The notes under the pieces: generated by a model
Seen by the model: the letters and a program-made list of their open reading frames with translations, nothing else
What the model was told of the DNA's origin: nothing
Databases searched by the model: none
Source of the DNA: Candidatus Alcyoniella australis
GTDB taxonomy: Bacteria > Lernaellota > Lernaellaia > JAVCCG01 > Alcyoniellaceae
Assembly: GCA_030765605.1 (NCBI GenBank)
Contig: JAVCCG010000034.1
Location: 1-55,090, forward strand
Length of the DNA: 55,090 bases
Reading direction: 5' to 3'
Program-made: the position numbers and the translations under genes
Shown: positions 3,452 to 46,632 of the stretch, piece after piece
Layout: the number at the start of each line of letters is the position of its first letter
Position numbering within the stretch: the first letter of the stretch is position 1

Positions 3452-4195
3452 ATGTCGGCACCGCCTGAATCAACGCTCGATCAGCAGCAACGCCTGCCCG
3501 GGATCAGTATCTGCTTCCCGTGTCTCAACGACCTGGGAACCATCGGTACGCTGGTGCTGCTGGCGGGCAAGGTGGCGCAGCAGGTGGCTGAGGACTATGA
3601 GATCGTGATCGTCGACGACGAGAGCGTTGATGGCTCGCGCGAGCTGCTCGGCGAGTTGGCGGCCGACGATCCCCGGGTTCGAGTGCTGTTCAACGAGCGC
3701 AACCAGGGTTACGGCCGCACCATCGCCCGGCTGCTCTCCGAGGCGCGGATGCCCTACGTGTTCTACACCGACGGCGACGGCCAATACGACGTGCGCGAGC
3801 TACCGCTGTTGGTGCAACGCATCGGCCCGGATACGCCGGTGGTCAACGGCTACAAGATCACGCGCTCGGATCCCTGGTTCCGCATCCTGCTTGGGCGGGT
3901 CTACCACTACACAGCCAAACTGATGTTCGGCCTGCGGGTGCGCGACGTGGACTGCGACTTCCGACTGTTCCAACGCCGGACCCTGGAGTCGCTTGATCTG
4001 ACCTGCAACGGCGGTGCGGTCTGTGTCGAGCTGGTCAAGAAGATCGAGCGCCAGGGCCTGGCCATCGCCGAGGTGCCGGTGCACCATTACTTCCGCACCT
4101 ACGGCAAGAGCCAGTTCTTCAACCTTGGGCGCATCACGCGCGTGATCCGCGAGTTCGCAACGCTGTGGTGGACGCTGTACGTGCGCGACCGCTGA
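3452..4195 (+). CDS. GT2 glycosyltransferase, polyprenol-phosphate type
   Basis: First gene of the six-gene operon running to 9587. The 247-residue GT-A fold has the nucleotide-binding region VDDESVDGS (about residues 52-60) and the metal-binding DGDGQYD (about 108-114). The layout, with no obvious C-terminal membrane domain, is that of DPM1/ArnC-like enzymes that transfer a sugar from an NDP donor to a lipid phosphate or acceptor. GAGGAG lies 2-3 bases before the ATG. Its stop overlaps the next start (TGATG at 4193-4197), indicating translational coupling. Substrate cannot be read from the sequence. It could act on the product of the neighbouring radical SAM enzymes. Confidence 0.85.
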   Translation: MSAPPESTLDQQQRLPGISICFPCLNDLGTIGTLVLLAGKVAQQVAEDYEIVIVDDESVDGSRELLGELAADDPRVRVLFNERNQGYGRTIARLLSEARMPYVFYTDGDGQYDVRELPLLVQRIGPDTPVVNGYKITRSDPWFRILLGRVYHYTAKLMFGLRVRDVDCDFRLFQRRTLESLDLTCNGGAVCVELVKKIERQGLAIAEVPVHHYFRTYGKSQFFNLGRITRVIREFATLWWTLYVRDR

Positions 4196-5628
4196 TGAAT
4201 AAACCAGGCAAGGTAACGCTGATCCAGCCGCCGTTGCACCACGGGCCGCTGTTTCTGCCCGCGGAGGTCGGCACGCGTTTCAGCTGCTTCCCGGCTCTGG
4301 GGCTGCTCACGCTGCGGGCCGGGATTAAAAAGCGCCTGGGGATCCAGGCCGCGTACCTCGACGCCGACGCCCTGGGACTTAGCGTCGAGCGTGCAGCGCA
4401 GCTCGTCGCGGCCACGGGCCCGGACGTGGTCGGGATTTCGATGGACAGCTTCACCATGAAAAACACCATCGCCCTGGCGCGAGCAATTAAACGCCTCGCG
4501 CCGCGCACGGTGGTGGCGGTCGGCGGCGTACACCCCACGATCTATCCGCGAGAGACAGCGGCGCTGGAGGGGATCGACTGGGCGTTCTGCGGCGAGGCGG
4601 ACCATGCCTTTCCCGAGGCGTTGGAAGCCCATGCCCGCGGCGCGTTGCCCAATATCCGCGGCGTGGCGTACCAGGCTGAGGGAGAGGTTGTTTTCGCAGG
4701 GCCCGCCGAGCCGATTGAAAACCTGGACGACCTGCCGTTTCCCGACTGGACCGGAGTCGAGCTGACGCCCTATTTCTCGGCCCCGGCAGCGGGGCGGCCG
4801 GTGCTGAGCATGATCACCAGCCGCGGTTGCCCGTTCCGCTGCACGTTTTGCGACCGGCCGCGGTTGGCGCATGGACTGCGCACCTGTTCGGCCGAGGCCG
4901 TGGTTGAGCAGATGCTCGAGCTTAAACGGATCGGCGCGCGCGAGATCAGCATCTACGACGACAACCTGACCGCCGATCGCAAACGCGCCCTGGCCGTGGC
5001 CGAGATGCTGGCGCAACGCGGCGCGCCCATCGGCTTTGACCTGCGCTCGCGCGTGGACACCATCGACGCGGAACTGCTCGACGTGTTGGCCCGCGCGGGC
5101 TGCCGTCGAATCTACTTCGGCGTGGAGTCGGGCGACCCGCAGGTGCTCAAGAACATCAAGAAGGGAATCGACCTGGATCAGACGCGGCGGGTGTTCGAGC
5201 ACGCGCGCCGACGCGGCATTCGTCGGCTGGCCTACTTCATGTTCGGACTGCCCGGCGAGGGGCTCGACGCGGCGCAACGCACCATCGAGTTCGCGCGTTC
5301 GCTCAAGGCCGACTACTACCTGTTCGAGATCTTCATCCCCATGCCCTGCACCGAGGCCTACGACTCGGCGCTGGCCGATGGGACAATCGAGCGCGATTAC
5401 TGGGCCGGGCAGGCCGCTGATCCGCAGCCGGATTTCACGCCCCCCTCCTATCCCGGGCTGCTCGATCCCGAACAGTTGGCGCGGATCAACTCCGAGGCCT
5501 ACCGCAAGGTGGTGCTCAGGCCGGGCTACGTGCTGCGCAGTTTGTTGGCCGTGCGCACGCCGCAAGAGATCGCGTTGCGCGTACGCGCCGCACTGGACCT
5601 GCTGCGGATGCGCGGAGGCGCGGCGTGA
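4195..5628 (+). CDS. B12-binding-domain radical SAM protein
   Basis: A 477-residue protein with an N-terminal Rossmann-like cobalamin-binding domain (about 1-140, with DVVGISMDS and VAVGGVHPT) and a radical SAM core whose [4Fe-4S] motif CPFRCTFC has Cys212, 216 and 219, then a C-terminal helical tail. This is the BchE/P-methylase/HpnP-like class, whose members methylate unactivated carbons or cyclise substrates. I see DADALG where many cobalamin domains have DxHxxG, so the cobalt-ligating His may be absent, as in several members of this class. The ATG at 4195 is chosen over the GTG at 4165 because it couples to the preceding stop. It overlaps the next gene by GTGA. Product unknown. Confidence 0.88.
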   Translation: MNKPGKVTLIQPPLHHGPLFLPAEVGTRFSCFPALGLLTLRAGIKKRLGIQAAYLDADALGLSVERAAQLVAATGPDVVGISMDSFTMKNTIALARAIKRLAPRTVVAVGGVHPTIYPRETAALEGIDWAFCGEADHAFPEALEAHARGALPNIRGVAYQAEGEVVFAGPAEPIENLDDLPFPDWTGVELTPYFSAPAAGRPVLSMITSRGCPFRCTFCDRPRLAHGLRTCSAEAVVEQMLELKRIGAREISIYDDNLTADRKRALAVAEMLAQRGAPIGFDLRSRVDTIDAELLDVLARAGCRRIYFGVESGDPQVLKNIKKGIDLDQTRRVFEHARRRGIRRLAYFMFGLPGEGLDAAQRTIEFARSLKADYYLFEIFIPMPCTEAYDSALADGTIERDYWAGQAADPQPDFTPPSYPGLLDPEQLARINSEAYRKVVLRPGYVLRSLLAVRTPQEIALRVRAALDLLRMRGGAA

Positions 5629-6707
5629 GTCAGGCGCGACTGGCCCGCGAGCTGGTGGCGCGCAGCCGTCGTAACCGACTGCGCGGCTACCTGGAACTGC
5701 TGGCGCGCAAGATGACCGCGCGCAGGCTGGCCAACATGGCGCTTAACGAGTGGGAGTTCCGCACTCGGCGGGTCAAGCTGCGCTCGCTGCCGCCGCAGAT
5801 TACTCTCGACGTGACCAACTACTGCAACCTGCACTGTCCGCTGTGCGCCACGGGTGCGCGGCTGCACAAGGCGTTGCCGCAACGCATCGATCTGCAGGAC
5901 GCCGAGCGGATCATGGCCCGCTTTGCCGCGCACAGTTTCCACGTGTTTCTCTATTGCTGGGGTGAGCCGCTGCTGCACCCGGAGTTGCCGGAAATCGTGC
6001 GCATCGCCCGCTCGATGAACCTAGCGGTGACGATCAGCAGCAACTTGCAGCAGCCGCTGAGCCTCGATCGGGCGCGCGAGCTGGTGGCCGCCGGGCCCGA
6101 CGTGATTGTGGCCTCGATCGACGGCCTGACCCAGGCGGTCTACGAGCACTACCGCGCCGGCGGCAGCCTGGAGACTGCATTGGACGGGCTGGCCAAACTG
6201 CGCCAAGCCCGCGACGAGCTGGGTCTGGATCGTCCGCTGCTCGAGTGGCAGACCCTGCTGTTTAGGCACAATCTGCACCAGGCGCCGGCGATTATCGGCC
6301 GTTATCGCGAGCTGGGTGCGGATCGATTGAGCTTCGAGTCGCCCAACCTGCCCTTTGACATGGCCGATGGCGAGCAGGCCCAACGCTGGCTGCTCGATCC
6401 GGGCGACGACCCGACGAGTCGCGACGTCAAGGACAACGTGGACGGCGCGTGCTGGTGGCCCTACCGCTCGGCGATCATCGGCGTGGACGGTTCGATCAGC
6501 CCCTGCTGCTACGTCTACGGCGAGCAGGCGCAGTGGGGCAACATGCTCGAGCGCGACTTCGCCCAAATTTGGAACTCGCCGAAGTTCGTGGCCCTGCGCA
6601 GCGTGTTCGCCCATCCCGGCTCGCCGCCGCCCGCGCCGTGCGACCGCTGCTCGGTGACCAGGCGCTTTGCCGCGGGTGTCGAGCCGCCGGTCCGGAGCAA
6701 CCGATGA
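5625..6707 (+). CDS. Radical SAM protein with SPASM-like C-terminus
   Basis: A 360-residue radical SAM enzyme: CNLHCPLC supplies Cys67, 71 and 74, followed by the GGE-like segment WGEPLLHPE (about 109-117). The C-terminal 90 residues carry CWWP, SPCC and CDRC, the pattern of a SPASM/twitch auxiliary-cluster domain, with the typical phrase on nearness to a residue count of WNS. SPASM enzymes usually modify peptides, but relatives act on lipids and sugars. Start is GTG inside the GTGA overlap with the gene before, and it overlaps the next gene by ATGA. No precursor peptide gene is evident nearby, so a ribosomal-peptide substrate is not supported. Confidence 0.87.
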   Translation: MSQARLARELVARSRRNRLRGYLELLARKMTARRLANMALNEWEFRTRRVKLRSLPPQITLDVTNYCNLHCPLCATGARLHKALPQRIDLQDAERIMARFAAHSFHVFLYCWGEPLLHPELPEIVRIARSMNLAVTISSNLQQPLSLDRARELVAAGPDVIVASIDGLTQAVYEHYRAGGSLETALDGLAKLRQARDELGLDRPLLEWQTLLFRHNLHQAPAIIGRYRELGADRLSFESPNLPFDMADGEQAQRWLLDPGDDPTSRDVKDNVDGACWWPYRSAIIGVDGSISPCCYVYGEQAQWGNMLERDFAQIWNSPKFVALRSVFAHPGSPPPAPCDRCSVTRRFAAGVEPPVRSNR

Positions 6708-7597
6708 GCGCCGAGCCGCGCTTCTCGATCGTGATCCCGCACCTCGACGCGCCGCTGATCGACCGCGTGCTGCTCGCGGCCTTGGAGCAGGCGCAGCGAC
6801 TCGATGGCGAGCTGATCGTGATCGGCATGGAACGCGGGACGCGACGCCTCGATCCCTGGCGCACGGCGGTCACGCCGCGGCTGACGCTGATCGATACCGA
6901 CCGGCCGTTGAACGCGGGCTCGGCGCGCAACATGGGCGTGGACGCGGCCGTAGCGGAGAGGCTGCTGTTCATCGACGCCGACGCCGTGCCGCAGCCCGGT
7001 TGGGCCGCGACGCTGTGCGCGGCCCTTGAGCACAGTCCGCTGTGCGGCGGCTCCGTAGAGTTCGGCGCGGCCACACGTTGGATGTTGGCCGATAACCTCG
7101 CAGCGTTCTTCGACCTGACCCCCCTGACGAAGCGCGGCCCCACGCGTTCGATCTGCAGCGTGAACATGGGGATTACGCGCAGTCTGTTCCGACGCCTGAG
7201 CGGCTTTGACCAACGGCTGAACACCGGCGAGGATTTCGACCTGCTGCTGCGCGCGCTGGAGGCCGGAATCCATCCGCTGTTCGAGCCTGCGGCGCGGGTG
7301 CTGCACTTGCCTCAGCGCAACAGCCGCGAGGCGTTGCAGCAACACGCCCGGGACTGGGCCGCGGGCTCGGTCCTGGTCAGGAAGCGTCGAAACCGGCCAC
7401 TGCTGCCCGGACCGCTGTTCCGGCCGCTGTGGTTGCGGCTGCTCGGCGCGCCCCTGGCGTTGATGGCCGCAACAGTCTCGCTGTGGCGCGCACGCCGCGT
7501 ACTCGATGCGCCCTGGGAGCTGCTCGGGCCGGTCTATTGCTCGCGCCGGGCGTGGTTTAGGCAGGCAGCGCAGACGCTGGGCGGGGAGGGGCGATGA
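6704..7597 (+). CDS. GT2 glycosyltransferase
   Basis: A 297-residue GT2 enzyme opening with FSIVIPHLD, then LNAGSARNMG (about 66-75) and the metal site FIDADA (about 88-93), followed by GEDFDLLLRA (about 178-187), the acceptor-side ED motif. One hydrophobic stretch near residues 246-262 suggests membrane association. The ATG at 6704 overlaps the preceding stop as ATGA; the longer open frame upstream is not coding. It likely transfers a sugar to the same acceptor as its operon partners. Substrate unknown. Confidence 0.85.
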   Translation: MSAEPRFSIVIPHLDAPLIDRVLLAALEQAQRLDGELIVIGMERGTRRLDPWRTAVTPRLTLIDTDRPLNAGSARNMGVDAAVAERLLFIDADAVPQPGWAATLCAALEHSPLCGGSVEFGAATRWMLADNLAAFFDLTPLTKRGPTRSICSVNMGITRSLFRRLSGFDQRLNTGEDFDLLLRALEAGIHPLFEPAARVLHLPQRNSREALQQHARDWAAGSVLVRKRRNRPLLPGPLFRPLWLRLLGAPLALMAATVSLWRARRVLDAPWELLGPVYCSRRAWFRQAAQTLGGEGR

Positions 7598-8613
7598 TCG
7601 GTATGCCCGGCCGCCAATTGATTTTGTTCGTCACCCAGCAGTGCCCGTTGCGCTGCGTGCATTGTTTCAACCGCCAGGCCCCGCAAAATTTAAAAGGTCC
7701 TGAGATCAACGTGGAAGAGGCGCGATTGGTCGGCCGCGAGCTTAAACCCATCGGCCAGCTCTCGATCTCGGGCGGGGAGCCGTTCGTGCGCAAAGATCTG
7801 CCTGAACTGATCGAGGCGGTGCGAGCTGAGGGCGGCGCGCGTTATCTCGACATCCCCACCGCGGGCTGGCAGCCCGGGCAGGTGCAGCAGACGATGAGCG
7901 CAATCCTCAAGCAGCGAGCCTGGCGGCGCATCTCGCTCAACCTCTCGCTGGACGGCGACGTCGAGCAGCACGACCGGATCCGCGGCCGTGCCGGATCGTA
8001 CGAGCGCTTGATCGAAACCTACCGCAGCGTGCTGCCGTTGCGCGCCGACTCGCGGCTGCAACTCAAGGCGGTGATCACCCTGATGCAGGGCACGGCCGGC
8101 GCGCTGGATCAGACGTTGAACGCCATGCGGCGCGATATGCCGCAGCTGGATTACGCGCATGTGGAGCCGTATCGCGGCCCGGATTTGGGCGAGGGCATTG
8201 CTCCGCCCAGCGCGCAGAGCATGCGCCAGTGTCGCGAGCTGGTGTTCGGGCTCTACCGCGGCCGCCGCGGGCTCGGTCCGCTGCGCGCGGCGTTCAAGCG
8301 CGTGCTGTGGGACGAGTATACGGAGCTGCTCGATGGAGGGCCGCCGCGGATCAACTGCCGGGCGCCGGACCTGGGGTTGGTGGTCGGCGAGCGGCTTGAG
8401 GTCTCGTTCTGCGAGCCGGGTCCGCTGCTGGGCAGCCTGCGCGAACAAAGCCTGGCACAGATCCTCGCCGGGCCGCGCGCCCGTAGCGAGCGCGAGCGCA
8501 TCGCCCGCGGTTGCGCCTGCACCCATTCGTGCTTTATGCAGCCCTCGGCCCTGTACTCGCCGCGGGCCTGGACCAGGGTGCCGCTGATGCTGATCAAGGG
8601 AGGCGGCCGATGA
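7594..8613 (+). CDS. Radical SAM protein, auxiliary-cluster type
   Basis: A 339-residue radical SAM enzyme. CPLRCVHC gives Cys17, 21 and 24, and LSISGGEPF (about 51-59) is the SAM-binding GGE motif. Late Cys residues (NCRAP, SFCEP, GCACTHSC) suit an auxiliary iron-sulfur cluster. It resembles the large group of SPASM-type AdoMet radicals found in accessory clusters. Coupled at both ends: ATGA with the preceding glycosyltransferase and ATGA with the next. Third radical SAM of the operon; its substrate cannot be named. Confidence 0.85.
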   Translation: MIGMPGRQLILFVTQQCPLRCVHCFNRQAPQNLKGPEINVEEARLVGRELKPIGQLSISGGEPFVRKDLPELIEAVRAEGGARYLDIPTAGWQPGQVQQTMSAILKQRAWRRISLNLSLDGDVEQHDRIRGRAGSYERLIETYRSVLPLRADSRLQLKAVITLMQGTAGALDQTLNAMRRDMPQLDYAHVEPYRGPDLGEGIAPPSAQSMRQCRELVFGLYRGRRGLGPLRAAFKRVLWDEYTELLDGGPPRINCRAPDLGLVVGERLEVSFCEPGPLLGSLREQSLAQILAGPRARSERERIARGCACTHSCFMQPSALYSPRAWTRVPLMLIKGGGR

Positions 8614-9587
8614 TGATTTCGGTGATCATTCCGGCGCGCAACGAGCAACAGGTGCTGCCCGGCCTGCTGAGCAGTCTGGCCGCCCAGACCTACAGCAACC
8701 GTGAGGTGATCGTGGCTGACGACTGTTCGGATGATCGCACATCGGAGCTGGCCGAGCAGGCCGGGGCGCGGGTGGTGCGCCTCGAGCGTCCCGGCGGACC
8801 GGCGGCCGCGCGCAACGCCGGGGCCGCGGTGGCCCAGGGCGAGCTGCTGCTGTTTCTCGACGCCGACACCCAGGCCCCGCCGGACCTGCTCGAACGCTTT
8901 GCCCGAGCCTTCGGTGTGCCGCGGCCGCCCACGGCCCTGGTCGGGCGCTACCATCATCAGCCGCTCAATCCCGGCTGGTTTCCGCGTTACAAGGCGCGGC
9001 TGACCGAGCTGTGGTTCGGCGACCGCATGCTGTGCGATTCGTTCGAGACCAACCTGGGCGCCATCGGCCGCGAGACGTTTGAGGCACTCGGCGGATTCGA
9101 CGAGCGCTTTCTCGGGGCCGATGTGGAGGACTACGAGTTCGGCGACCGGGTGTGGCAAGTGGGGCCGATCGTGATGGACCCCGGACTGCAGGTGCGCCAC
9201 CACTTCCCCGGTTTCTGGCGCAACGCGCGCAACTTTTACTCTCGCTCGCGGATGTGGGTCCAGCTACGCTTGTCCGGTCGTCGACGTTTCGACCGCAGTG
9301 CGGCCACGCCCTGGGATGCGATCGCCAGCCTGCTGAGCCTGGCCGTGCTGTTGTGGCCCCTGGGCCTGCTGCTGGTCGATCCCGCCATCTGGTGGCGGAT
9401 CATGCTGCTGCTGCTGATCGGCTTTCTTACGGGCAACCGGCGGCTGCTGATCCACATGCTGCGCTCCGAGGGCATATTTTTTACCCTGGCCGCGGTGCCG
9501 GCGACCATTGTGCAGCAATCGGCCGCGGCCTGCGGGGCCTTGGTCGGCGTACTGCGTTCGCTACTGGGGCCGGTTGACTCGGAGTAG
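8610..9587 (+). CDS. Membrane-associated GT2 glycosyltransferase
   Basis: A 325-residue protein with a GT-A domain (ISVIIPARNE at 3-12, ADDCSDDRTS, AAARNAGAA, FLDADTQAPPD) and about three hydrophobic segments after residue 235, so it probably works at the cytoplasmic membrane face. GGGAGG lies 6 bases before the ATG at 8610, which sits in an ATGA overlap. Last gene of the operon, with a 71-base gap to the next gene. It may complete a glycolipid or polyprenyl-linked glycan; inference from context only. Confidence 0.85.
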   Translation: MMISVIIPARNEQQVLPGLLSSLAAQTYSNREVIVADDCSDDRTSELAEQAGARVVRLERPGGPAAARNAGAAVAQGELLLFLDADTQAPPDLLERFARAFGVPRPPTALVGRYHHQPLNPGWFPRYKARLTELWFGDRMLCDSFETNLGAIGRETFEALGGFDERFLGADVEDYEFGDRVWQVGPIVMDPGLQVRHHFPGFWRNARNFYSRSRMWVQLRLSGRRRFDRSAATPWDAIASLLSLAVLLWPLGLLLVDPAIWWRIMLLLLIGFLTGNRRLLIHMLRSEGIFFTLAAVPATIVQQSAAACGALVGVLRSLLGPVDSE

Positions 9588-9658: not shown

Positions 9659-12646
9659 ATGTCCCAGATAGATGAAATTATCCGCAGCGCTCAGAAGACC
9701 AAAGATCTTTCGGGCCAGAATCTGTCTAAGGCCAAGCTCAGCGGCATGGACCTTTCCGGATACGACCTAAGCGGGGCCGATCTGAGCCGTTCCAAGCTCA
9801 ACGGGACCAACCTTTCAGGCACCAAACTCGATGGCGTGGACTTGAGCCGCAGCAGCCTGAAGAAGGTCGATCTATCCGGCGCCAAGGGCAAGGACGTCAA
9901 CCTGCGCGGCAGCGTTCTGGAGGCGGTCAAGGCCGTGGGCCTCGAGCTGGACCAGCCCGAGCTGTCCGGCGTAGCGATCAAGGAAGGCGAGTACTCCGGC
10001 CTCAAGCTACGGCAGCCCAAGGCCGACGGCGCTCAAATACAAAAGGTGACGATCAAGGGGCTCGAACTCGAGGGAGGCAAGTTCTCGGAACTCGTGATGG
10101 GCCGCGTGCGCCTCGAGGAACTGCATGCAACTGGGCTGGAGCTGTCGCGCTGCCGGCTGAACGACACGACCTTCGTGGACTGCCGCGTGGAGCAGGGGAG
10201 CTGGACCAAGTCGGACCTGAGCCTGTGCCGTTTCGAGCAGACCACCTTTGACAAGCTCGACCTGACGCGCTCGGATCTCTCGGGTTCGGTGTTCAAGAAC
10301 TCGACCCTGCGCGACTGCAAGCTCGAACGCGCGGTGTTTCTGGCCACCGACTGGCAGGACTCCTCGATTTCCGGCGGTGAGATCAAGGGCGCCAACTTCA
10401 AGTACGCACGCGGGTTCAAGCCCGAGCAGGAACAGAAGCTGCGCGAGGGCGGAGCCAAGGTCAGCCGCCACCTGGTCAAACGCTCGCTGAGCTGGATGCT
10501 CAAGACCCATCTGGGCCGGATCAGCTTCGTGCTGCTGGTGCTGGCGCTGATCGCGGCTAGCAGTTGGGTGCGCAACAATCCCGACTTCTGGCACTACGAG
10601 CAGATCAGCATGGTCGCCAACCAGGAGCTGAACATGAACGACCTCGAGGAGGCCGGCGAGCTGTACCGGATCATCCTCGACAAGTACGAAGGCATCCCCG
10701 ACTACACCAACCCGGCGCACCTGGGGTTGGCGCAGATCGCTGCCAAGCGCAACGACGAGGCCGAGCTCAACCGTCAGATCGCGTTTATCCTCGATGCCCC
10801 GGCGATCAACCCCGAGATCCAGGAACAGGCCTGGATGGTCAAGGTCGATTTCCACATCGAACGAAGAGAATATGATATGGCGTTGGAGCAGTTGAGCAAC
10901 GTTCCCTGGGGAAACAACGGCTCCGAAGGCTTTTATAGCAACATCCTCGAAAAGAAGATCCAGATCTATAGCTCGCAGGGCCGGCTCGACCTCGCCGAGC
11001 AGCAGATCGTCGAGTTCTTAGAGCAGGTCGATCCGGAGAGCGATATCGTCTGGCGCACCAAACTCAAACTCGGCGAGATCTATGACGAACTGGGCCGGGA
11101 AGAGGAAGCGCTGCTGGTCTTCCGCGCTGTCGCGGACAACGCCATCCAGATCGACAATGCATTCCAGGCCTACGAACGCATGGCGACGATCTATCACAAA
11201 CAGGGCCGCATCGACCTCGAACGCCAAATACGCGATGAGATCTTCGAGCGTTTCCCCGAGCAAAGCGTTCAACTGATCCAGAACAAGATTCAGCTGGCCT
11301 CGCTTGCGTTCGACGAGGGGCGCGAGGACGAGGCGCGACAGATCCTGGAAGAGGTAATCGCCAACCAGCTGACCCCGGACTACTCTATTTTTTCCTCGCT
11401 CGAGGCGCTGGCGAGCTGGGATGCGCAGAAAGGCAACTACGACAAAGCCCGCGAGTACTACCAACGCTCCCTGGACCGGGAACCCAAAGGCGAACAGCTT
11501 TTAGGGGTCTACCTGGGAATGGCCGACCTTGAGCGCCGGGCCGGAGAGAACGAAGCGGCCGAGGGCTATTACAAGCGGGCTCTTCGCGAAGATTTCGGTC
11601 CCAACGAACAATCGATGATCCTCTACTCGTACGGCAACTTGATGGCTTCAATGGGCATGTACAAGCCCGCCGAGCGTCGATTTAAAGAAGCGCAGGAAAA
11701 GTCCCGCGGGCAAAACAACGAGGGCATAACCTCTTCGATCCAGGTCTCCCTGGCCCGGATCTACCGCAATATGGGCAGATACGACGAGGCCCTCGATGTG
11801 CTCAACGGGATGATCTCCGATGATACATCGCCCGCCGACCTGGAGCTAAGAACGCAGATCGCGCAGATCCACCGCGACGCCGGCGAAAACAAGAAGTCGC
11901 TCGAGGTGCTCGATCAGACCGCCGAGAAATACAAGGACGAAACCAACGGCTGGATCAGCAGCCAGATCGAGATCTGCGAGCTGTTGATCGAGATGAATAA
12001 GAACGATCGCGTCAAGAAAATCGTCAATGAGTTGATCGACGATCATTACCGCGATCTAGGGCCGCAGCTGAACCGGCTGATGGGAGTCATGACCACGCTG
12101 TCGATGAACGACGAACTGCTCCGGCTGGCCACGCGAATTGCTTCTGACGATCAGATGGACATGATGGTCAAGGTCGAGGCGGTGAGGAAGCTCGCCCAGG
12201 TCAAGCGCGACGGCGGCAACGTCGATGAGGCGATCGAGCTGCTCATGGATGTGCTCGACAGCTCGGGGGACGATGAGGTCTCGATGTCGATCGCACAGGA
12301 TCTTGCCAACCTCTACAACGAGATCGGCCGATTGGACGATGCGATCACGTTGCTCGAGGACACCCTCGAGCAAAAGATGTCCACCTACAATAAAGTGATG
12401 CTGACGATTCTGCTCGCCCAGTTCTACTCCGACCGCAATGATTTGAAAAAGGCGATCGATGTGATCGAGGATCTCAAGTCCGACTGCGAAGACTGGACGA
12501 GCAACGAGTGCCTCCCGGCGTTGGAAATACTCGGTCGTAATTACGAACAGGCGGGCGACGAGTCAAAGTCCAAACGCTATTACCAAATAATCGTGGACAA
12601 CTTCAGCGACAGTGGATTTGTTGATGAGGCTAAGCGACACCTCTAA
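9659..12646 (+). CDS. Pentapeptide-repeat / transmembrane / TPR fusion protein
   Basis: A 995-residue protein in three parts. Residues about 15-250 are pentapeptide repeats of A(D/N)LxG type (for example LSGADLS, LNGTNLSG), expected to form a right-handed quadrilateral beta-helix. Residues about 289-304 are a single membrane span after a basic stretch (KRSLSW). Residues about 310-995 are successive tetratricopeptide-like helical pairs (DEALxVL, GRxDxA). With no signal peptide, the beta-helix is predicted cytoplasmic and the TPR array periplasmic. I do not know a characterised protein with this order. It starts 71 bases after the glycosyltransferase operon and may be its distal member. Likely a scaffold; function unknown. 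Confidence 0.85.
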   Translation: MSQIDEIIRSAQKTKDLSGQNLSKAKLSGMDLSGYDLSGADLSRSKLNGTNLSGTKLDGVDLSRSSLKKVDLSGAKGKDVNLRGSVLEAVKAVGLELDQPELSGVAIKEGEYSGLKLRQPKADGAQIQKVTIKGLELEGGKFSELVMGRVRLEELHATGLELSRCRLNDTTFVDCRVEQGSWTKSDLSLCRFEQTTFDKLDLTRSDLSGSVFKNSTLRDCKLERAVFLATDWQDSSISGGEIKGANFKYARGFKPEQEQKLREGGAKVSRHLVKRSLSWMLKTHLGRISFVLLVLALIAASSWVRNNPDFWHYEQISMVANQELNMNDLEEAGELYRIILDKYEGIPDYTNPAHLGLAQIAAKRNDEAELNRQIAFILDAPAINPEIQEQAWMVKVDFHIERREYDMALEQLSNVPWGNNGSEGFYSNILEKKIQIYSSQGRLDLAEQQIVEFLEQVDPESDIVWRTKLKLGEIYDELGREEEALLVFRAVADNAIQIDNAFQAYERMATIYHKQGRIDLERQIRDEIFERFPEQSVQLIQNKIQLASLAFDEGREDEARQILEEVIANQLTPDYSIFSSLEALASWDAQKGNYDKAREYYQRSLDREPKGEQLLGVYLGMADLERRAGENEAAEGYYKRALREDFGPNEQSMILYSYGNLMASMGMYKPAERRFKEAQEKSRGQNNEGITSSIQVSLARIYRNMGRYDEALDVLNGMISDDTSPADLELRTQIAQIHRDAGENKKSLEVLDQTAEKYKDETNGWISSQIEICELLIEMNKNDRVKKIVNELIDDHYRDLGPQLNRLMGVMTTLSMNDELLRLATRIASDDQMDMMVKVEAVRKLAQVKRDGGNVDEAIELLMDVLDSSGDDEVSMSIAQDLANLYNEIGRLDDAITLLEDTLEQKMSTYNKVMLTILLAQFYSDRNDLKKAIDVIEDLKSDCEDWTSNECLPALEILGRNYEQAGDESKSKRYYQIIVDNFSDSGFVDEAKRHL

Positions 12647-12662
12647 AACGAATGATTGGAGC

Positions 12663-13580
12663 ATGCGCGGAGCCTCGTTCCTCAGCTTGTGGATAGTGCT
12701 TTGTCTGTTGATCAGCCTTGGCCTGCTGGCAGCGTGCGTCGGCGGCGGATCAGGCGGTGGTTCGGACGATGATGACGACGATGTTGACGACGACGACGAT
12801 GACGATGATGGCCACGACGAAGATGATGACGACGACGACGACGAACAGCCCGACGCATGGGGCGGCGTAAGCGTCAGCGAAGGCTACAGCTCAAACAACT
12901 ACCAACCGTTGGACTATTACTGCTACGCCTCGGCCTCGTTTTACGATCCTGAGCAGTGGGAGGGCTGGGGCGATCCGGACGACGAGCAGGGTGATTGCAA
13001 GCTGTATACCTACGCGGGAGACGGCGCGACCGCCGACTTTCTAGGCGCGGGCCGAGTTACGCTCACCGGCGCGAGAGTCAGCCCGATCTACCTCGATCCC
13101 GAGCTGTATGCGGGCTACTACATCTATCGCGCCAACGTCGACTTCCTCACCGTCTCCGACCTGTTCGACCCCGGCGATACGATCCGCGCGCAGGTGGCCG
13201 GCGGCAGCGGCATCGGGGCGGCCGACCTGAGCGTAGACGCGCCCGCGATGATCGCCGTGACCCAGCCGTCGAACTTCGACAGCCTGAGCAGCCTGCCCCA
13301 CAACACGACCACCTTTGCCTGGAGCGCGGGGGACGCCGACGAGGTCTCGCTGATGATCAGCACCTACATCGGCACCAACGGTAAGCTGATCGAGTGTCGC
13401 GCGCCGGACTCCCAGGGGAGCATTGAGGTGGACGGCGAACTGATGGACGATCTGTACTCCAGCCCGCAGACCCTGACCGTGATGTTCTCGCGCTACAACA
13501 TCGTCTACGGATCAGGGGAGCGCCCGGTCAGCCTCAGCGCTCTGACCTACCGCCAGCGCAGCTACATCGTCGTCGACTGA
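12663..13580 (+). CDS. Asp-rich-linker lipoprotein, function unknown
   Basis: About 305 residues. A hydrophobic signal ends in a lipobox LAAC (Cys25), then a Gly/Ser run and roughly 30 residues of almost pure Asp, then a beta-rich folded part of about 240 residues without a recognised domain. The codons of the linker are GAC/GAT repeats. The start is uncertain: the ATG at 12663 gives a standard n-region but GGAG is only one base away, while an ATG at 12624 overlaps the previous gene and gives a longer n-region. Predicted to be anchored in the outer or inner membrane with the Asp run as a charged spacer. Its 3' end overlaps the convergent gene. Confidence 0.8.
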   Translation: MRGASFLSLWIVLCLLISLGLLAACVGGGSGGGSDDDDDDVDDDDDDDDGHDEDDDDDDDEQPDAWGGVSVSEGYSSNNYQPLDYYCYASASFYDPEQWEGWGDPDDEQGDCKLYTYAGDGATADFLGAGRVTLTGARVSPIYLDPELYAGYYIYRANVDFLTVSDLFDPGDTIRAQVAGGSGIGAADLSVDAPAMIAVTQPSNFDSLSSLPHNTTTFAWSAGDADEVSLMISTYIGTNGKLIECRAPDSQGSIEVDGELMDDLYSSPQTLTVMFSRYNIVYGSGERPVSLSALTYRQRSYIVVD

Positions 13581-15296
13581 CTCTGCCGCGGTCCACGGCC
13601 CTTCGGGGCATTGCCCGTCATAGATCCGCATATCACGCGGATTGAGCTGCGCCGGCTGGCTGGCCTCGGCCGTGAGCGCCTGCTGTATAACGGCCCCGAG
13701 CGCGACCGCCAGCTTGTGGAACGGGTCGGGCAGCGGTGGGCCCTGCTGCGCAACGCGCTGTTCGAGCTGTGCCAGGTCCAGACTCCAGACCCCAAGTGTC
13801 GCGCTGGTGATGAACGCCCGGTCGTGTTTGGAATCGAGCTCAATCCAGCGCGTCCAATATGGCGCCGCGATCCTGACGATCAAGCTCAGATCGTCGGACG
13901 AGCGGATCTCGAGAAACGGCGAGAGCCCGCTGAGCAACAGCCAGCCGCGCTTAGCGTCGATCGCCATCGCGCGCACGCCGATGAACGCTCCGCAATCGCG
14001 TAGCGTCCGGTAGTCGCGTCGGTCCAGCTGCATCACGCGACCGGCCACGGGAAAGCTGACGAACAGTCGCTCGGCGTTGGGATCCACGGCCAGACGGTCG
14101 GCCATCGCCGGCAGCGGGCGTTGGCGTAGGATATCGAGCCGCGGCAGGCTCAGCGCGGCAAGGACGCGTTGCCGTCCAAACCAGGCCAGCAGGTGCGTCT
14201 CATTGCGTAGTGGATCGAGCTGCGCGTCGCTTTGCAGTTGCGTGGGGCGTTGGGCGATCAGGGTCCGGCCGTCTGCGCACAGGCTGACCGACGCGCCGTC
14301 GCACGAGCAGTAGACCAGGCCGCGTTGTGCGTCGTAATGCGTGCGGCAGCCCGCATAGGTCCCCTCGACTTTGTGCTTAAACGTCGAGATGCGAAGCGGT
14401 TCGAGGGTGCGCGCGTCGAGCACCACGCTGTGCCGGGTCGTGGAGATGTAGAGCAGCCGTTGCGAGTCGTAATCGAGCGCCGCGGCCTGGACGCCGCGCA
14501 GGTCGCCGGATTCGCGACGCACGCTCGATCCATCGTCGAGGTTGCGCCGCACCAGTGCGCCGTGTTCGTCAAGCAGCAGCAGGGCGTTGCCCACGGGATC
14601 GTACAGCGCTTGGTAGTAGACGCCCTCGTCGATCCGTTCCAGCGCCGGGTCCACGGCCACGGCCTGGTACTGCTCCAGCGGCGATCCCAGCCAGGGCACC
14701 AACGGCAGGCCGCAGAGCAGCGCCGCGGGCAGTACGCGGGGCAGGGCGAACAATCGCGGATGGCCGTTGCGATGCGCCGACCACAGCAGCACCGGGAACA
14801 GCAGGTCGGCCAACAGCGCCGCGCGCACCACGATCGCCCGCAGCCGCGGGGTCCAGCGGTTGCCCACGTGGAACCAGATCAGCCCGGCCAGATTCATGCC
14901 CAGCACGATCAACGGGCCGCGCGGCATCCGGTCCAACTCCAGTCCGGGCCGGGTCCAGCCCGGGGCGTACCAGGCCAGCGAGCAGCAGGCAGCGGGCACG
15001 GCGATCGCCAGCAACAGCAGCACCCAGGACGGCGGCTGCAGCCGCCGGAGGTTCGGCGCGAACAGCAGCACCAGACCCGCGGGCAGCAGCGCGTAGAACA
15101 GCGAGCGGTAGACGTCGAGCTGGAATACCAGGCTCAGCAGGGTATCGTGCCACCACAGATCTTCCTGGGCGGCGATGCCGCGCCGCGCCAGGGCTGAGAG
15201 CGCCCACAGTAGAACGGCGACACGCAGTAGGTAGAACGCCAGCGAGGTCGCACCGCGAGCGAGTCTCCGCGTCGACTCCTTTGCGTCAGCGTGCAT
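13512..15296 (-). CDS. Membrane-domain plus beta-propeller protein, paralogue 1
   Basis: About 594 residues: five to six hydrophobic segments within about 1-210, then about 330 residues of YVTN/NHL-like propeller blades (RLLYIS, GLVYCS, ERLFVS, GWLLLSG). The conserved closing motif is YWTRWIELD, ITSAT, GVWSLDL. It shares QLDVYRSLFYALLP near residue 60 with its two neighbours, showing tandem duplication. The C-terminal tail is about 45 residues longer than in the paralogues and its last 69 bases overlap the convergent lipoprotein gene, so the true stop is open but the tail looks recently extended. The ATG at 15296 (AGGAG 10 bases upstream) is preferred; GTG at 15299 is possible. Function unknown. 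Confidence 0.8.
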   Translation of the reverse strand: MHADAKESTRRLARGATSLAFYLLRVAVLLWALSALARRGIAAQEDLWWHDTLLSLVFQLDVYRSLFYALLPAGLVLLFAPNLRRLQPPSWVLLLLAIAVPAACCSLAWYAPGWTRPGLELDRMPRGPLIVLGMNLAGLIWFHVGNRWTPRLRAIVVRAALLADLLFPVLLWSAHRNGHPRLFALPRVLPAALLCGLPLVPWLGSPLEQYQAVAVDPALERIDEGVYYQALYDPVGNALLLLDEHGALVRRNLDDGSSVRRESGDLRGVQAAALDYDSQRLLYISTTRHSVVLDARTLEPLRISTFKHKVEGTYAGCRTHYDAQRGLVYCSCDGASVSLCADGRTLIAQRPTQLQSDAQLDPLRNETHLLAWFGRQRVLAALSLPRLDILRQRPLPAMADRLAVDPNAERLFVSFPVAGRVMQLDRRDYRTLRDCGAFIGVRAMAIDAKRGWLLLSGLSPFLEIRSSDDLSLIVRIAAPYWTRWIELDSKHDRAFITSATLGVWSLDLAQLEQRVAQQGPPLPDPFHKLAVALGAVIQQALTAEASQPAQLNPRDMRIYDGQCPEGPWTAAESVDDDVAALAVGQSAEADRALP

Positions 15297-16965
15297 CACA
15301 GGAGTGCTCCTGCTCGAGGTCGTCGCCCCAGATCAGGCGTGCAGCCAGCCCGATGCCGCGATTGAGCAAAGTATAGAACGGGTCGAACCGGCGCCAGGCC
15401 GCGTCGGTTGAATCTTTGCCCAGCCGGTCCAGGTCGATGCGCCACAGGCCGTAGAGGTTGGAGGTGATCAGCGCGTCATTGTCGACGAACGCGATCCAGC
15501 GCGCCCAGGCCGGAGCCGTGACGCGGTCGATCAGCGAGTAATCGTCCAGGTCGCGCAGCTCGATCACCGGAGCGAAGCCGGCGATCAGCAGCCGTCGTCC
15601 CTTGAGGTCGAAGCCGACGAAGCGCACGCCGGGAAAGGTCTCGATAGTTGCGATCAGGCTGTAGTCGCGCGCATCAAACACGCGCACCTCGCCTAAAAGC
15701 GGCAAAGAGACGTAGAGCCGATGGGAGCCGGGCTCGAGGTTGATCCGTTCGGCGAAGTTGGGGATGCGCCGCTCGCGCCGCACCTTTAGGTCACGGGCGT
15801 CAAGGGCCACCAGACCGCCGGGTCGCCAGCGCACCACGTGGACCAGACCGCGCTGTGCGTCGTAGACCTCGCCCGAGGTCGATCCGGCGTGGAAATAGCT
15901 GCCCAAGATTCGGCGGCCGCCACGGTCGAGGGCCACGCCGCCGATCTGGCTGAAGCTGTACAGCGGATCGTTGCCGTCCCCGAGGTAGGTGCGCCACTTG
16001 TTGCCCAGCCATTGGGGCACCGGATTTTCAATCGCGATTCGTTCGATGAGTCGCATGCTCTGCGAGTCGATTCGCACGCTTTGGCCCGCGCTGGGCTCGA
16101 TGAACAGCAGCTCGTTCGCGGCCGCGTCGTAGGCCAGGATCTGCATGAACTCGAACTCGGTCCAAAGCTCGGCCAGGGTCTCGCCGCTACGGCCCTCCAC
16201 CCGATACAGCTCGCGCTGGTCGGTGCTGATCAGCAGCGCGTCGGGCGTCTCCAGCGGCTGGACCTGGAACGTCGGTGGTTTACGCAGTTGATGCAGCGCC
16301 GGGTGCAACGGGTAGTAGGTCTCGCCGCCGAGCTGTTCGATGGACGGCGGGTGCAGCAGCCAGGGCACGAAGACAGTTGCGCAGACCAGAACCGCGGGCA
16401 GTACGCGCAACGGCTCGAGCAGACGGCCGCGTTCGGCGCGGACGGCTGACCAGACCAGGGACGGTGCCAGCAGGTCGGCCGCTCCCAGACCGCGCGTGGC
16501 GAGCAGTCGCAGCCGCAGGCCGCTGCGTCCCATGGTATGCAGCCAGAGCACAACAAAGACGTTGAGCGCCACGTAGTACGAAGCGGCGCGCACGCCCTCG
16601 GGCAGTGCAATCAGCGGTCGCGTGGCCCTTGCGGCGAAGTAGGGCAGCCAGCCGGAGACAACGGCCAGAGTCAGACAGATCGGCAGACCGATCAACAGCT
16701 CGAGCCTGGGGCGTCGTCCCGCTGTGATCCGCGGTGCGAACAGCAGCAGCAACGCGGCGGGCAGCACGGCGTAAAACAGCGCGCGGAACAGGTCGAGCAG
16801 TACAATCACGTCCATCAGGTTGCGCGATTGGCCAAGCGGGAAGTTCTCGCGCAGCCGACTGAGCACGATCAGCGTCAGGCACGCGGCCACTGCGCCAAAG
16901 CGCAGCAGATAGAGCAGAGCGTGTAGCCAGGCGCGCCTTGGCTTCGAACCCGAGAGCGCCGTCAC
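15286..16965 (-). CDS. Membrane-domain plus beta-propeller protein, paralogue 2
   Basis: A 559-residue paralogue of both neighbours: membrane domain (about 1-205) with LLDLFRALFYAVLP, then propeller blades with LLFIEPS, RLYVSLP and RLLIAGF. It closes with AWARWIAF, LITSN and GLWRIDLDRL. GTG start with GAGGGAAG about 6 bases upstream inside the preceding gene's end; it overlaps the next gene by 11 bases. No catalytic residues are evident in the propeller. Expected in the inner membrane with the propeller on one side. The propeller may bind or sense a ligand, but that is inference. Confidence 0.82.
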   Translation of the reverse strand: MTALSGSKPRRAWLHALLYLLRFGAVAACLTLIVLSRLRENFPLGQSRNLMDVIVLLDLFRALFYAVLPAALLLLFAPRITAGRRPRLELLIGLPICLTLAVVSGWLPYFAARATRPLIALPEGVRAASYYVALNVFVVLWLHTMGRSGLRLRLLATRGLGAADLLAPSLVWSAVRAERGRLLEPLRVLPAVLVCATVFVPWLLHPPSIEQLGGETYYPLHPALHQLRKPPTFQVQPLETPDALLISTDQRELYRVEGRSGETLAELWTEFEFMQILAYDAAANELLFIEPSAGQSVRIDSQSMRLIERIAIENPVPQWLGNKWRTYLGDGNDPLYSFSQIGGVALDRGGRRILGSYFHAGSTSGEVYDAQRGLVHVVRWRPGGLVALDARDLKVRRERRIPNFAERINLEPGSHRLYVSLPLLGEVRVFDARDYSLIATIETFPGVRFVGFDLKGRRLLIAGFAPVIELRDLDDYSLIDRVTAPAWARWIAFVDNDALITSNLYGLWRIDLDRLGKDSTDAAWRRFDPFYTLLNRGIGLAARLIWGDDLEQEHSCDAR

Positions 16966-16967
16966 CT

Positions 16968-18635
16968 TCAGCTTCCCTCGGGCGATTTATTGGCGGGCCA
17001 GATCAAGCGCTGCACCAACCGGCTGACCCGGCCGACCAGCGGGTAGAACACGTCGTTGCGTCGCTGCTTGGCTCTCGGCGATCCGGGCCCCAATCGGTCG
17101 AGGTCGATGCGGAACACGCCGAACCAGCCCGAGCAGATATAGGCGCTGTTGCGCTGCGGATCGATGCTCGCCCAGCGCGCCCAGGGCGGCCCGTGGATAC
17201 GGTCGATCAGGCTCAGATCGTCCAGGTTGCGCAGCTCGATCACCGGCGAGAACCCGGCGAGCAGCAGCAGGCGGTTTTGCGGATCAACGGCGATTACGCG
17301 CACGCCGGGGAACACATCGACGCGGCCGATCTCCTCGAAGCGCTCGAGGTCGACCAGCATCAGCTGTCCGGGCAAGGGCAGGGTGATCAACAGCCGGTTG
17401 GTCTGCGGGTCCAGGGCCATCCGTTCGGGATAGATCGGCGTGGGCAGCCAGCGCTTCTCGGCCAGCGTCTGAGCGTCGAGCACCATCAGCTTGCCCACGT
17501 CCCAGATCGTTACCAGCAGCTCGTCGTTTTGCGGCAGGTACAGCGCGTCGGCGTGGCCGCCGGTGTAGTGCGGCGTGCCCTCGTCGGGGTAAAGCGCGGC
17601 GATGCGCGAGCCCTCCGCGTCGAGCAGCGCAAACAGGTTCATGCTGTACGAGGCGATCAACCCGTGTTTCAACGGGGCAACTGTGCGCCACTTGTTGGTC
17701 TCGACCTCCAGCCGGTTGACGACCTGCGCGTCGTGTTCCACCGCATAGCTGCGCGGATCCAGGACCAGAGTACGGCCCACCGCCGGGTTGGACGCCAGCA
17801 GCTGGTCGGCCTCAAGATCGAGCGCCACCGACTGCAAGGTTTGCATCCCGGTATCGATCTGGGCCAACACGTCGCCGCAGTGCGGCTCAAGGCGCAGCAG
17901 CAGGTTCTCGTCGGTAGTGACGATCAGCGAGCCGTCGCGCGGGTCGGCCAGGGTCTGGTAGCACGGCGGCTCGCGCAGCTGGGTCAGCGCCGGGTGAAAG
18001 CGCGTGGCGCTGTCGATCGACTGCGGCGCGAACAGCCAGGGCAACAACCCGACCAGCGTCACCAGCAACGCGGGGATCGCCCGCGCCAAGGTCAGCGCAC
18101 GGTTGCCCGAAGTCCGATAAGCCGACCAAACTGCGGTTGGCGCCAGCAGGTCGGCCAGGCCCCAGCCCTTGAACAGCAGATCGGCGATGCGCCCGGTGCA
18201 CAGCCCGTTGAGGTGCAGCCAGATGATACAGAACACGTTGAGCGCCAGGTAGATCGAGGCCGCCACGGTCCAGACGTTGAACGCGTGGCTGGGCCGCGTA
18301 AACAGCGCGGCCTGCAACGGTAGCCAGCCGACCAGCGCGGCCAACAGCAGGCACGGCGCGAGGCTCAGCCGCACGCGCATCCGTGACGCCCGGCCGATCA
18401 GCGGCGTGAGCAGCAGCAGCGCGAACGTTGGGAGCAGCGCGTAGAACAACGCGTGGTACAGATCAAGCTGGGCCACGATCTCGAACAGCGCCGCCGAGTC
18501 GCTGAAGCGGTAGCGCAGAGCCATTGCGCCCAGGACCGCCGCGAAAAACACGACCAACAGCCCCAAGCCGCGCAATAGATAGTGCGCAGGCCGAGCCCTC
18601 GGCGCTGGAATGGCGGTCGTCGGAGCGTTACGCAT
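16968..18635 (-). CDS. Membrane-domain plus beta-propeller protein, paralogue 3
   Basis: A 555-residue first gene of the tandem triplet. The membrane half has QLDLYHALFYALLP and GLADLLAPTAVWSAYR, shared in position with the second paralogue (GAADLLAPSLVWSAVR). The propeller half has SLIVTTDE, ALYLPQNDELLV, RLLITLP and LLLLAGFSPVIELRNLDD, and it ends PPWARWASID, GVFRIDLDRL. It ends 2 bases before the next start. The tRNA terminator at 18664-18696 lies just upstream, so a separate promoter is needed. Function unknown. Confidence 0.82.
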   Translation of the reverse strand: MRNAPTTAIPAPRARPAHYLLRGLGLLVVFFAAVLGAMALRYRFSDSAALFEIVAQLDLYHALFYALLPTFALLLLTPLIGRASRMRVRLSLAPCLLLAALVGWLPLQAALFTRPSHAFNVWTVAASIYLALNVFCIIWLHLNGLCTGRIADLLFKGWGLADLLAPTAVWSAYRTSGNRALTLARAIPALLVTLVGLLPWLFAPQSIDSATRFHPALTQLREPPCYQTLADPRDGSLIVTTDENLLLRLEPHCGDVLAQIDTGMQTLQSVALDLEADQLLASNPAVGRTLVLDPRSYAVEHDAQVVNRLEVETNKWRTVAPLKHGLIASYSMNLFALLDAEGSRIAALYPDEGTPHYTGGHADALYLPQNDELLVTIWDVGKLMVLDAQTLAEKRWLPTPIYPERMALDPQTNRLLITLPLPGQLMLVDLERFEEIGRVDVFPGVRVIAVDPQNRLLLLAGFSPVIELRNLDDLSLIDRIHGPPWARWASIDPQRNSAYICSGWFGVFRIDLDRLGPGSPRAKQRRNDVFYPLVGRVSRLVQRLIWPANKSPEGS

Positions 18636-18941: not shown

Positions 18942-19871
18942 TCAGTGCATTTCCACGTCCACCGTGCCGATAGCGGGGCGCAGAAAATTGAAGCGCACAT
19001 TGGGATGATCGGCCAGCAGCGACATCGGCACCGCGCTGTCAACGATGCTTTGGCTGATCATCAGCGTGGTCAGCCGCATGCCGAACGGATTGTCGTGCAT
19101 GCCCGCGTGCCAGATCGACACGCACTCGGCTTTCCAGGTCTCGCGCGGTCCCACCGTGGCCGCCTGGGTCGGCACCAGCGATACGTTGCCCCCGCCGGAG
19201 GTGCGGGCGTTTTGGATGATCGTCATCGGGTGCAAATCGACCACCCGTGCGCCGAGCTCGCGGTATTGCTCGGGCGGCGGCGGCCGCTCGAGCCAGGGCT
19301 CCCTGCGCTGCGGCGGGTCGTTGAACGCCCAGTGTTTCACCTCGCCCTGGCCGCCCTGCATCACCACGCAGCGCACATCGTCGAAGCTGCGGCTGTAGTA
19401 CTCCAGGTCGTCCGTTGGAAAGTGCAGGTTGGCCGTTGGCATGCGCAGTTTTGGACGGATGCGCTCGAAGCACAGCCGCATGTCGGCTCGGGCGAACGAC
19501 AGCGGGTGGGAGATCGGCAGCGGTCGACCGTTTTCAACCCATTCGTCCATGCCCCAGAAGTGGGCGTGGGTCAGATCGAGTTCCAGGCTGTTGACCAGTT
19601 GTGCCACCAGCGGTAGTTGCTCGGTGGGACCGATCGGGCCGCAGATTCCGGCCGGTCGCTGCGGTGTGGCCTGCTGCCAGGCGTGGATGTATTCCAGCGC
19701 CTCGGCCAGGTAGAACTCCTCGGGCGTGTCGTAGATTGCGATCTCGAATCCGGGCCGGGCAAGGTCCGGCAGATCCTCGGCCCGTAGCGCGGCCGCCTCG
19801 TCGAGTAGCCGCCTGTCCAGGGTGGTGTAGTCCCACCAATCGGGCGACAGTTTGCTGATCGCTCTGCTCAC
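18942..19871 (-). CDS. NagB-like glucosamine-6-phosphate isomerase/deaminase family protein
   Basis: A 309-residue NagB/RpiA/PGL-like protein. The loop FWGMDEWV (about 121-128) matches the DEY active loop of glucosamine-6-phosphate deaminase, and HWAFNDP corresponds to HIAFNEP. The usual phosphate loop GGSTP is replaced by GPIGPTEQ, so substrate may differ. GTG start at 19871 overlaps the upstream stop (GTGA) with GGGGGGAG close by; the longer frame upstream lies inside the other gene. Paired with a PIG-L deacetylase, it likely forms a deacetylation-then-deamination route for an N-acetylated amino sugar. Cytoplasmic. Family clear, reaction inferred. Confidence 0.8.
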
Positions 19872-20695
19872 GGCTCCCCCCGGCGTTGGTCGTGTTCGAA
19901 CAGTTCGTCGAGCACACACGATGCCCCGAGCAGCTCGGACAGCGGGTCGGCGTGCTCCGCGCAGAACCCCAGATGGTTGTGTCTGCGCCAGCCCTCGGCG
20001 TGCTCGAAGCGGCCCGACAGCCGACCGAGCTCGCGGCTTTGTTCGAGCATCGTCTCGATAAAGCAGTCGGTCCCCTGGCTGCGTTCGAGCCACTGCCGTT
20101 GGCTGGCGTGGGCCTCGAGCATCTGCTGCTTGCGCGCGATCACCGGCGTGGTGTCGACAAATAGCTGCGGCCGGACCGGCCGTCGCAGGCCGTCGCGCAG
20201 CCCGTGGGGCATGGCGTGATAAAGGGTCATCTCGCCGTCTATCGGTTCCAACGGCGGGAAGGTTTGAAAGTTGCGCATGCCGCGGACAAAGGCCGCGCTG
20301 ACCAGCAGCCGGCAGGCGTTCTGATGATCCTCCATATAATCCTCGGGCGAGGGTATGAGCATGACCTGCGGCCGCAGTCCGCGCAGCACCGCGGCCACAC
20401 GCCTGAGCAAATCGGTCTGGTAGATCAGCTCGAAATCATCCACAAGGGGCGGGTGCAGCCGCGCGTCGGCGATGCGCGCCGATTGCTCGGCCTCCTGCTG
20501 GCGGAGGATTCTGATTGCCTGGACGTCGAGCTCGTTGCTGCCGCACGAGCCGCTGGCCAGGTTCCAGATGTGCAGTTTGGCCCCCAGCTCGCCCAGCCGC
20601 AGCAGGGTGCCGGCCATGCAAAACTCCACATCGTCCGGGTGCGCAGCCGCGGCCAGGACTACCAGCGGCGATTCAGAGTTTACCTTGTCTTGCAT
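19868..20695 (-). CDS. PIG-L/LmbE-family deacetylase
   Basis: A 275-residue zinc-dependent N-deacetylase. AAHPDDVEF (about 17-25) provides the AHPDD metal/catalytic motif, and [12 protein letters not shown] (about 115-126) the later His ligand. PIG-L enzymes remove acetyl from N-acetylglucosamine-type groups on lipids, thiols or free sugars. The ATG at 20695 is chosen because a Gly-rich SD-like GGGG precedes it and the family motif starts 16 residues later; an upstream extension would be Ala/Thr-rich and unlike the family. Coupled to the NagB-like gene by GTGA. Confidence 0.86.
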
Positions 20696-29919: not shown

Positions 29920-29943
29920 CTTCCCCCTTATCTCGGCGCTATT

Positions 29944-46593: not shown

Positions 46594-46602
46594 CAGAGGG
46601 GC

Positions 46603-46632
46603 ATTATACATATCGAGCGCACGAAATATCAG
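46603..46632 (-). promoter_or_regulatory. Promoter for the Tes-like gene, near-leaderless
   Basis: On the minus strand a perfect TATAAT (46608-46603) with a CTGATA -35 18 bases upstream (46632-46627). Transcription would begin within about ten bases of the ATG at 46593. Confidence 0.5.

Follow-up and report, generated by a model that had tools for sequence, protein, structure and literature searches.

A six-gene operon of Candidatus Alcyoniella australis pairs glycosyltransferases with radical SAM enzymes and may remodel lipid-carried sugars

The contig JAVCCG010000034.1 of Candidatus Alcyoniella australis (assembly GCA_030765605.1; 55,090 nucleotides, 63% GC), analysed over its entire length and referred to here as the window (C34 among the contigs), carries six overlapping plus-strand genes at 3452-9587. 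They encode three family 2 glycosyltransferases (GT2) and three radical S-adenosylmethionine (SAM) enzymes, in a genome of 4.29 Mb that is 98% complete. We propose that this operon probably, on a modest balance of the comparative evidence, makes a short glycan on a lipid carrier or an envelope lipid, each GT2 being matched to a radical SAM enzyme that would remodel the sugar. The proposal draws on gene content and order, domains, catalytic motifs, the families that neighbour related genes, and two adjacencies between glycosyltransferase (GT) and radical SAM genes that recur across phyla. The six genes are as follows.

GTa, 3452..4195, + strand: GT2, 247 aa, closest to polyprenol-phosphate / dolichyl-phosphate hexose transferases (PF00535, 76.6 bits)
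RS1, 4195..5628, + strand: B12-binding radical SAM enzyme, 477 aa (PF02310, 69 bits; PF04055, 106 bits)
RS2, 5625..6707, + strand: radical SAM/SPASM enzyme, 360 aa, GTG start (PF04055 and PF13186)
GTb, 6704..7597, + strand: GT2, 297 aa (PF13641/PF00535)
RS3, 7594..8613, + strand: radical SAM enzyme with a SPASM-like C-terminal Cys set, 339 aa (PF04055)
GTc, 8610..9587, + strand: GT2 with C-terminal membrane-associated helices, 325 aa (PF00535, 116 bits)

A preliminary description had placed six genes of these types here, and both the open reading frames (ORFs) and Pfam agree; the Pfam assignments are, in order, GT2, B12-binding plus Radical_SAM, Radical_SAM plus SPASM, GT2, Radical_SAM and GT2. 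The overlaps of 1-4 bases that it noted at every junction are also found, at 1 nt (TGATG) and then 4, 4, 4 and 4 nt (GTGA or ATGA), as is its membrane-bound last GT: by hydropathy, GTc alone among the operon GTs has a membrane tail. It had also described GTs and radical SAM enzymes as alternating. The numbers, three of each, bear this out, but the alternation is not strict, since RS1 and RS2 are adjacent, and the order is better read as three couples. In a motif scan, CxxxCxxC is kept in RS1, RS2 and RS3 and a DXD-type motif in the GTs; GTb keeps its DAD and GED motifs and has a non-canonical first nucleotide-binding Asp motif. RS1 combines CPFRCTFC at 212 with a B12-binding domain and thus qualifies as a cobalamin-dependent radical SAM enzyme.

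The main interest of the operon lies in GT-radical SAM couples that cross phyla, namely RS3 with a GT and a polyprenyl-phosphate-type GT2 with RS1. These two adjacencies are spread over uncultured phyla and archaea as well as Pelagibacteraceae, a Synechococcus and Chloroflexota. Relatives of RS3 were recovered by an alignment-based scan of genome contigs, a single-sequence scan having given nothing. The best 80 of 544 relatives (one genome per species) were retained, which makes this a best-hit rather than a random sample, and neighbours were counted at these 80 loci and seven further ones with our own ORF caller, which placed RS3 in 78. What is said of partners depends throughout on genes called automatically and on permissive similarity cut-offs. 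In 46 of the 78 loci the gene directly next to RS3 encodes a co-directional GT (GT2 or GT4). The count is 30/76 for position -1 and 26/72 for position +1 (36-39%), compared with 2-9% for positions 2 to 8, upstream or downstream. Most of these adjacent GTs are GT2s of the GTb/GTc type, and a C-terminal membrane-associated tail like that of GTc occurs in many of them (alignment A3). The family is spread over Omnitrophota, Acidobacteria, Planctomycetota, Chloroflexota, Pelagibacteraceae, a Synechococcus, Patescibacteria, Nanoarchaeota, Diapherotrites and others, and the Cys set of RS3 (C255, C273, C307, C309, C313) is conserved in alignments of 8 and of 50 relatives.

Single loci of the RS3 family show further arrangements. 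In one (L091), a GTc-RS3-methyltransferase-RS1 run lies beside a GHMP (sugar) kinase and a SIS-domain gene, with a nucleotidyltransferase recognised by eye. Three metagenome-assembled genomes (MAGs) of Acidobacteria have RS3 followed by a GT4 (a Pfam result for L043, a judgement by eye for L042 and L055); in L043 and L055 another radical SAM gene with CxxxCxxC follows, a further GT-radical SAM alternation. An RS3-family gene adjoins a GT2 in two Pelagibacteraceae single cells (L047, L079) and a Synechococcus MAG (L051), that is, in abundant aquatic bacteria.

The second couple involves the B12-type enzyme. Of about 390 genomes, 18 besides this one contain the closest RS1 relatives (34-43% identity). 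A GT2 lies directly upstream (-1) in 9 of 23 loci and at -2 to -6 in none. In alignment these GT2 partners form a single family, marked by a two-helix tail (AglJ/dolichyl-phosphate type); for the one that was scored, the top model was AglJ (dolichyl-phosphate type) at 110 bits, under the cut-off. In the tree, RS1 groups with a class-mate and then with three loci (L158, L202, L204; support 97/91) that carry GT4, epimerase, GT2, RS1 and GT2 genes. One of this sister clade, L158, also has a hexapeptide transferase and a decaprenyl-phosphate phosphoribosyltransferase (290 bits against a cut-off of 234). At another locus (L207), an aminotransferase, a deacetylase, an AglJ-like GT2, a formyltransferase and a flippase-like gene precede RS1, a set that recalls the Arn pathway. 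RS1 itself has AprD4 as its nearest PDB entry by sequence and HpnJ as its best NCBIfam model (185.8 bits against a cut-off of 577.6).

RS2 has fewer relatives than the other two radical SAM enzymes, and they are situated in lipopolysaccharide/exopolysaccharide (LPS/EPS)-type clusters. One lies among a heptosyltransferase and other glycan genes (G053), and a polysaccharide-type locus of the RS3-GT or RS2 kind (L162) likewise has a heptosyltransferase. Weak RS2-like genes occur close to RS1 in L200, L206 and L209. In the class-mate G005 (L156), homologues of RS1 and RS2 adjoin, with frames broken in the assembly, and a GTb homologue lies about 5 kb downstream. The order RS3-methyltransferase-GTb-methyltransferase-RS2-like is found in a Bryobacterales MAG. 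The PDB matches of RS2 by sequence are weak: GDGT-MAS, PqqE, BlsE and BtrN.

The genome of Candidatus Alcyoniella australis holds 114 radical SAM domains and 37 GT2 domains, and their clustering exceeds chance. Ten of the 37 GT2 lie within 2 kb of a radical SAM gene (3.1 expected, P about 8e-4), and 7 of 34 do so when the window is excluded (P about 0.02). Other such loci read GT-RS1-GT (C17), RS2-like-RS1-GT (C104), RS1-x-GTa-(weak) RS3-like (C38) and RS1-GTa (C72). Several of the radical SAM domains stand in tandem arrays of B12-type enzymes.

We propose three couples, GTa-RS1, RS2-GTb and RS3-GTc, in which the sugar would be remodelled while lipid-bound or under construction. The pathway would begin with GTa loading the first sugar onto the carrier, most likely polyprenyl phosphate. 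RS1, from the neighbourhood of HpnJ, BchE and AprD4, could then rearrange, cyclise, dehydrate or methylate this sugar. RS2 and RS3 may carry out further C-H modifications, such as epimerisation, dehydrogenation, decarboxylation or deoxygenation; the chain would be lengthened by GTb and by GTc, which is membrane-anchored. In favour of this reading, the six genes overlap, and the neighbours of the radical SAM enzymes by structure or sequence include BlsE, DesII, BtrN and AprD4, which modify sugars or cyclitols. The RS1 clade, the RS3 family and the RS2 relatives accompany polyprenyl-phosphate, GT and LPS/EPS-type genes, and the genome itself encodes a decaprenyl-phosphate phosphoribosyltransferase, with a score above the cut-off.

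The AlphaFold model of RS3 (mean predicted local distance difference test score, pLDDT, 93) has a radical SAM core and a C-terminal auxiliary-cluster domain; its first strand begins at residue 7, with no N-terminal RRE. A fold search against the PDB gave BlsE, which acts on a sugar nucleoside, at the top, then AnSME and maturases of ribosomally synthesised and post-translationally modified peptides (RiPPs), with DesII and BtrN lower. Identity to the sugar-modifying enzymes is 14-16%, with template modelling (TM) scores of 0.4-0.6. With TM scores of about 0.6, the modelled RS3 is without a close structural relative in the PDB. The model of GTc (pLDDT 89) is a GT2 fold with C-terminal helices, and its nearest matches are wall-teichoic-acid and polymer GTs.

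Several observations weigh against a lipid-linked glycan made by three couples. GTa had been described as polyprenol-phosphate-type. Its best matches are of that type (ArnC-type 67 bits and dolichyl-phosphate hexose transferase 55.9 bits, both under the equivalog cut-off; nearest solved structures ArnC, which is the nearest in the PDB, and DPM synthase), but by hydropathy it has no C-terminal two-helix membrane tail, which is typical of RS1 partners elsewhere, and it matches the RS1-partner GT2s of other loci weakly. The six genes include no flippase, ligase, polymerase or nucleotide-sugar gene. The loci that point to the RS2-GTb pairing are two, L041 (RS3-methyltransferase-GTb-methyltransferase-RS2-like, truncated) and, by loose proximity, G005. 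The structural matches are distant, and many are SPASM enzymes that modify peptides. A search of the 7 class genomes and of about 60-390 further genomes, depending on the query and including no other member of the same family, did not turn up a second example of the exact order of six genes, even within the class.

The preliminary description had called for a search for syntenic operons, taking homologues scattered in no conserved order as evidence against its reading. Although the exact order does not recur, the RS3-GT and GT2-RS1 couples do, across phyla. Operon-gene homologues in class-mates are mostly scattered; G001, for instance, has RS1 and GTc homologues on separate contigs without partners, but G005 retains RS1-RS2. 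With the exact operon not found in other genomes searched, it seems to bring together, in this lineage specifically, couples that recur elsewhere. Despite the unconserved order, its components are not a random mixture. The glycosylated lipid or lipid-linked product with radical modifications that had been suggested remains the best-supported reading on comparative evidence, weakened by the unconserved order.

Few radical SAM enzymes are known to us that act on lipid-linked sugars, HpnJ being one. Taken literally, the claim that no described pathway has this gene order holds, but one described pathway, HpnI-HpnK-HpnJ, follows an analogous logic: in it HpnJ finishes the cyclitol ether of bacteriohopanetetrol from hopanoid-bound glucosamine (PMC12583986). 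A GT adds a sugar to a lipid there, and a cobalamin-class radical SAM enzyme converts the sugar last. A GT2 gene directly beside a cobalamin-type radical SAM gene, used as a mark of this pathway, is present in the operon as GTa-RS1. HpnJ is among the few cobalamin-dependent radical SAM enzymes that do not methylate (PMC13142503). The operon differs in having three radical SAM enzymes rather than one and no HpnK-type deacetylase, the genome has neither a squalene-hopene cyclase nor HpnH over the cut-off, and RS1 scores far under the HpnJ cut-off. Our best reading is that the operon would resemble HpnI-HpnJ in logic and that its product would not be a hopanoid. The hopanoid pathway itself was tried and rejected (PF13243 best 23.3 bits against 26.1; HpnH best 68 against 225; RS1 against HpnJ as given above).

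We know of no radical SAM enzyme in the described polyprenyl-phosphate sugar systems. These systems (GtrB/AglJ/ArnC, and the UbiA-type three-component systems for pentofuranoses; PMC11127046) resemble the operon in the GT2 type that GTa matches best, in the partnership of the RS1 clade with such GT2s and in the decaprenyl-phosphate phosphoribosyltransferase of a sister-clade locus, but neither a flippase nor a GT-C transferase is encoded in the operon. In the open-access literature we found such analogues and no description of a GT-radical SAM couple of this kind. More tentatively, the operon may be three couples of a widespread, undescribed class of envelope-glycan pathways in which dedicated GT-radical SAM couples both build and remodel sugars carried on polyprenyl phosphate or another lipid, with carbocyclic, ring-contracted, branched or deoxygenated sugars, for example, as possible products. 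If the two recurring couples act on glycans in the proposed way, radical-made sugars would be common yet unseen in bacterial envelopes, and the conserved two-gene cassettes would offer small constructs for expression testing.

It is possible, though unlikely, that the radical SAM enzymes act instead on the lipid itself, whether a polyprenyl, ether or hydrocarbon chain (compare ladderane, tetraether and hopanoid methylation chemistry), and that the GTs add the head group. RS1 does match the lipid B12-radical SAM model TIGR04072 (92.5 bits) and HpnR (73.6 bits), the best PDB sequence match of RS2 is GDGT-MAS (41 bits), and a Tes-like radical SAM gene lies in the same window (45331-46611). However, the operon contains no lipid biosynthesis gene, the RS1 clade accompanies sugar and polyprenyl-phosphate genes, and the genome has no hopanoid genes of the kinds named above over the cut-off.

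A radical SAM enzyme together with a GT is typical of aminoglycoside- or nucleoside-like natural-product clusters, and the closest solved structures to RS1, RS2 and RS3 include AprD4, BtrN, BlsE and DesII. A diffusible glycosylated product of that kind, made by the GTs and sugar-modifying radical SAM enzymes, nevertheless seems improbable. Those enzymes act on sugars or cyclitols in pathways that yield soluble antibiotics and are distant from RS3. GTc and many of its cross-phylum relatives have membrane tails, no scaffold-forming, transport, resistance or regulator gene lies beside the operon, and the partners in other loci are envelope-glycan genes.

The operon also shares with mycofactocin MftC/MftF (PMC7491314) a SPASM-type radical SAM enzyme and an MftF-like GT2, MftF being the best NCBIfam model for GTb and GTc. 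A glycosylated, peptide-derived cofactor of this type is very unlikely. The MftF scores (86.3 and 89 bits against a cut-off of 280) span the generic GT2 region, and RS2 and RS3 fall far under the maturase MftC (37-45 bits against 265). The region's gene model (ORFs of at least 60 aa) has no small precursor gene beside the operon, whose overlapping genes leave no room for one; the six genes have no Pfam match to an RRE domain, and there is no PqqD-like gene. Membership of a mycofactocin or other RiPP system was rejected on these grounds, in line with the earlier argument against a RiPP cluster. Also rejected was the arsenosugar biosynthesis GT (TIGR04283; GTc 87.4 and GTb 31.2 bits against a cut-off of 182). 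That the operon is fortuitous, with six independent functions, is suggested by the unpaired homologues in G001 and G004 but is very unlikely given five consecutive overlaps and GT-RS3 and GT2-RS1 adjacency across phyla far over the position background.

Upstream of the operon, the minus strand carries a ribonucleotide reductase gene and a small gene that matches no family. A promoter and terminator scan gave the same match counts as shuffled sequences. Downstream, 72 bp past GTc, begins a plus-strand gene (9659-12646) for a 995-aa protein with pentapeptide repeats, many tetratricopeptide repeats and a likely membrane helix, which nothing ties to the operon. On the minus strand follow three successive large proteins of 594, 559 and 535 aa (13512-18575), by eye paralogues that combine an N-terminal membrane region with a C-terminal part resembling a beta-propeller; a Pfam scan of the first and third gave no match. 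A PIG-L/BshB1-like deacetylase (18942-20695, minus strand; 107.5 bits against a cut-off of 182.5) overlaps a 309-aa protein without a family match. Trehalose-6-phosphate synthase and trehalose phosphatase genes (28447-32649, minus strand) are followed by shorter ORFs, one of them GT-like by eye. The Tes-like protein (45331-46611, minus strand) has an HMPTM-type zinc ribbon, scores 178 bits to the tetraether lipid synthase Tes and 187 bits to TrsS, both below the cut-off, and is a possible relative of lipid-joining enzymes; its homologue in the class-mate G003 (L169) scores 386 bits.

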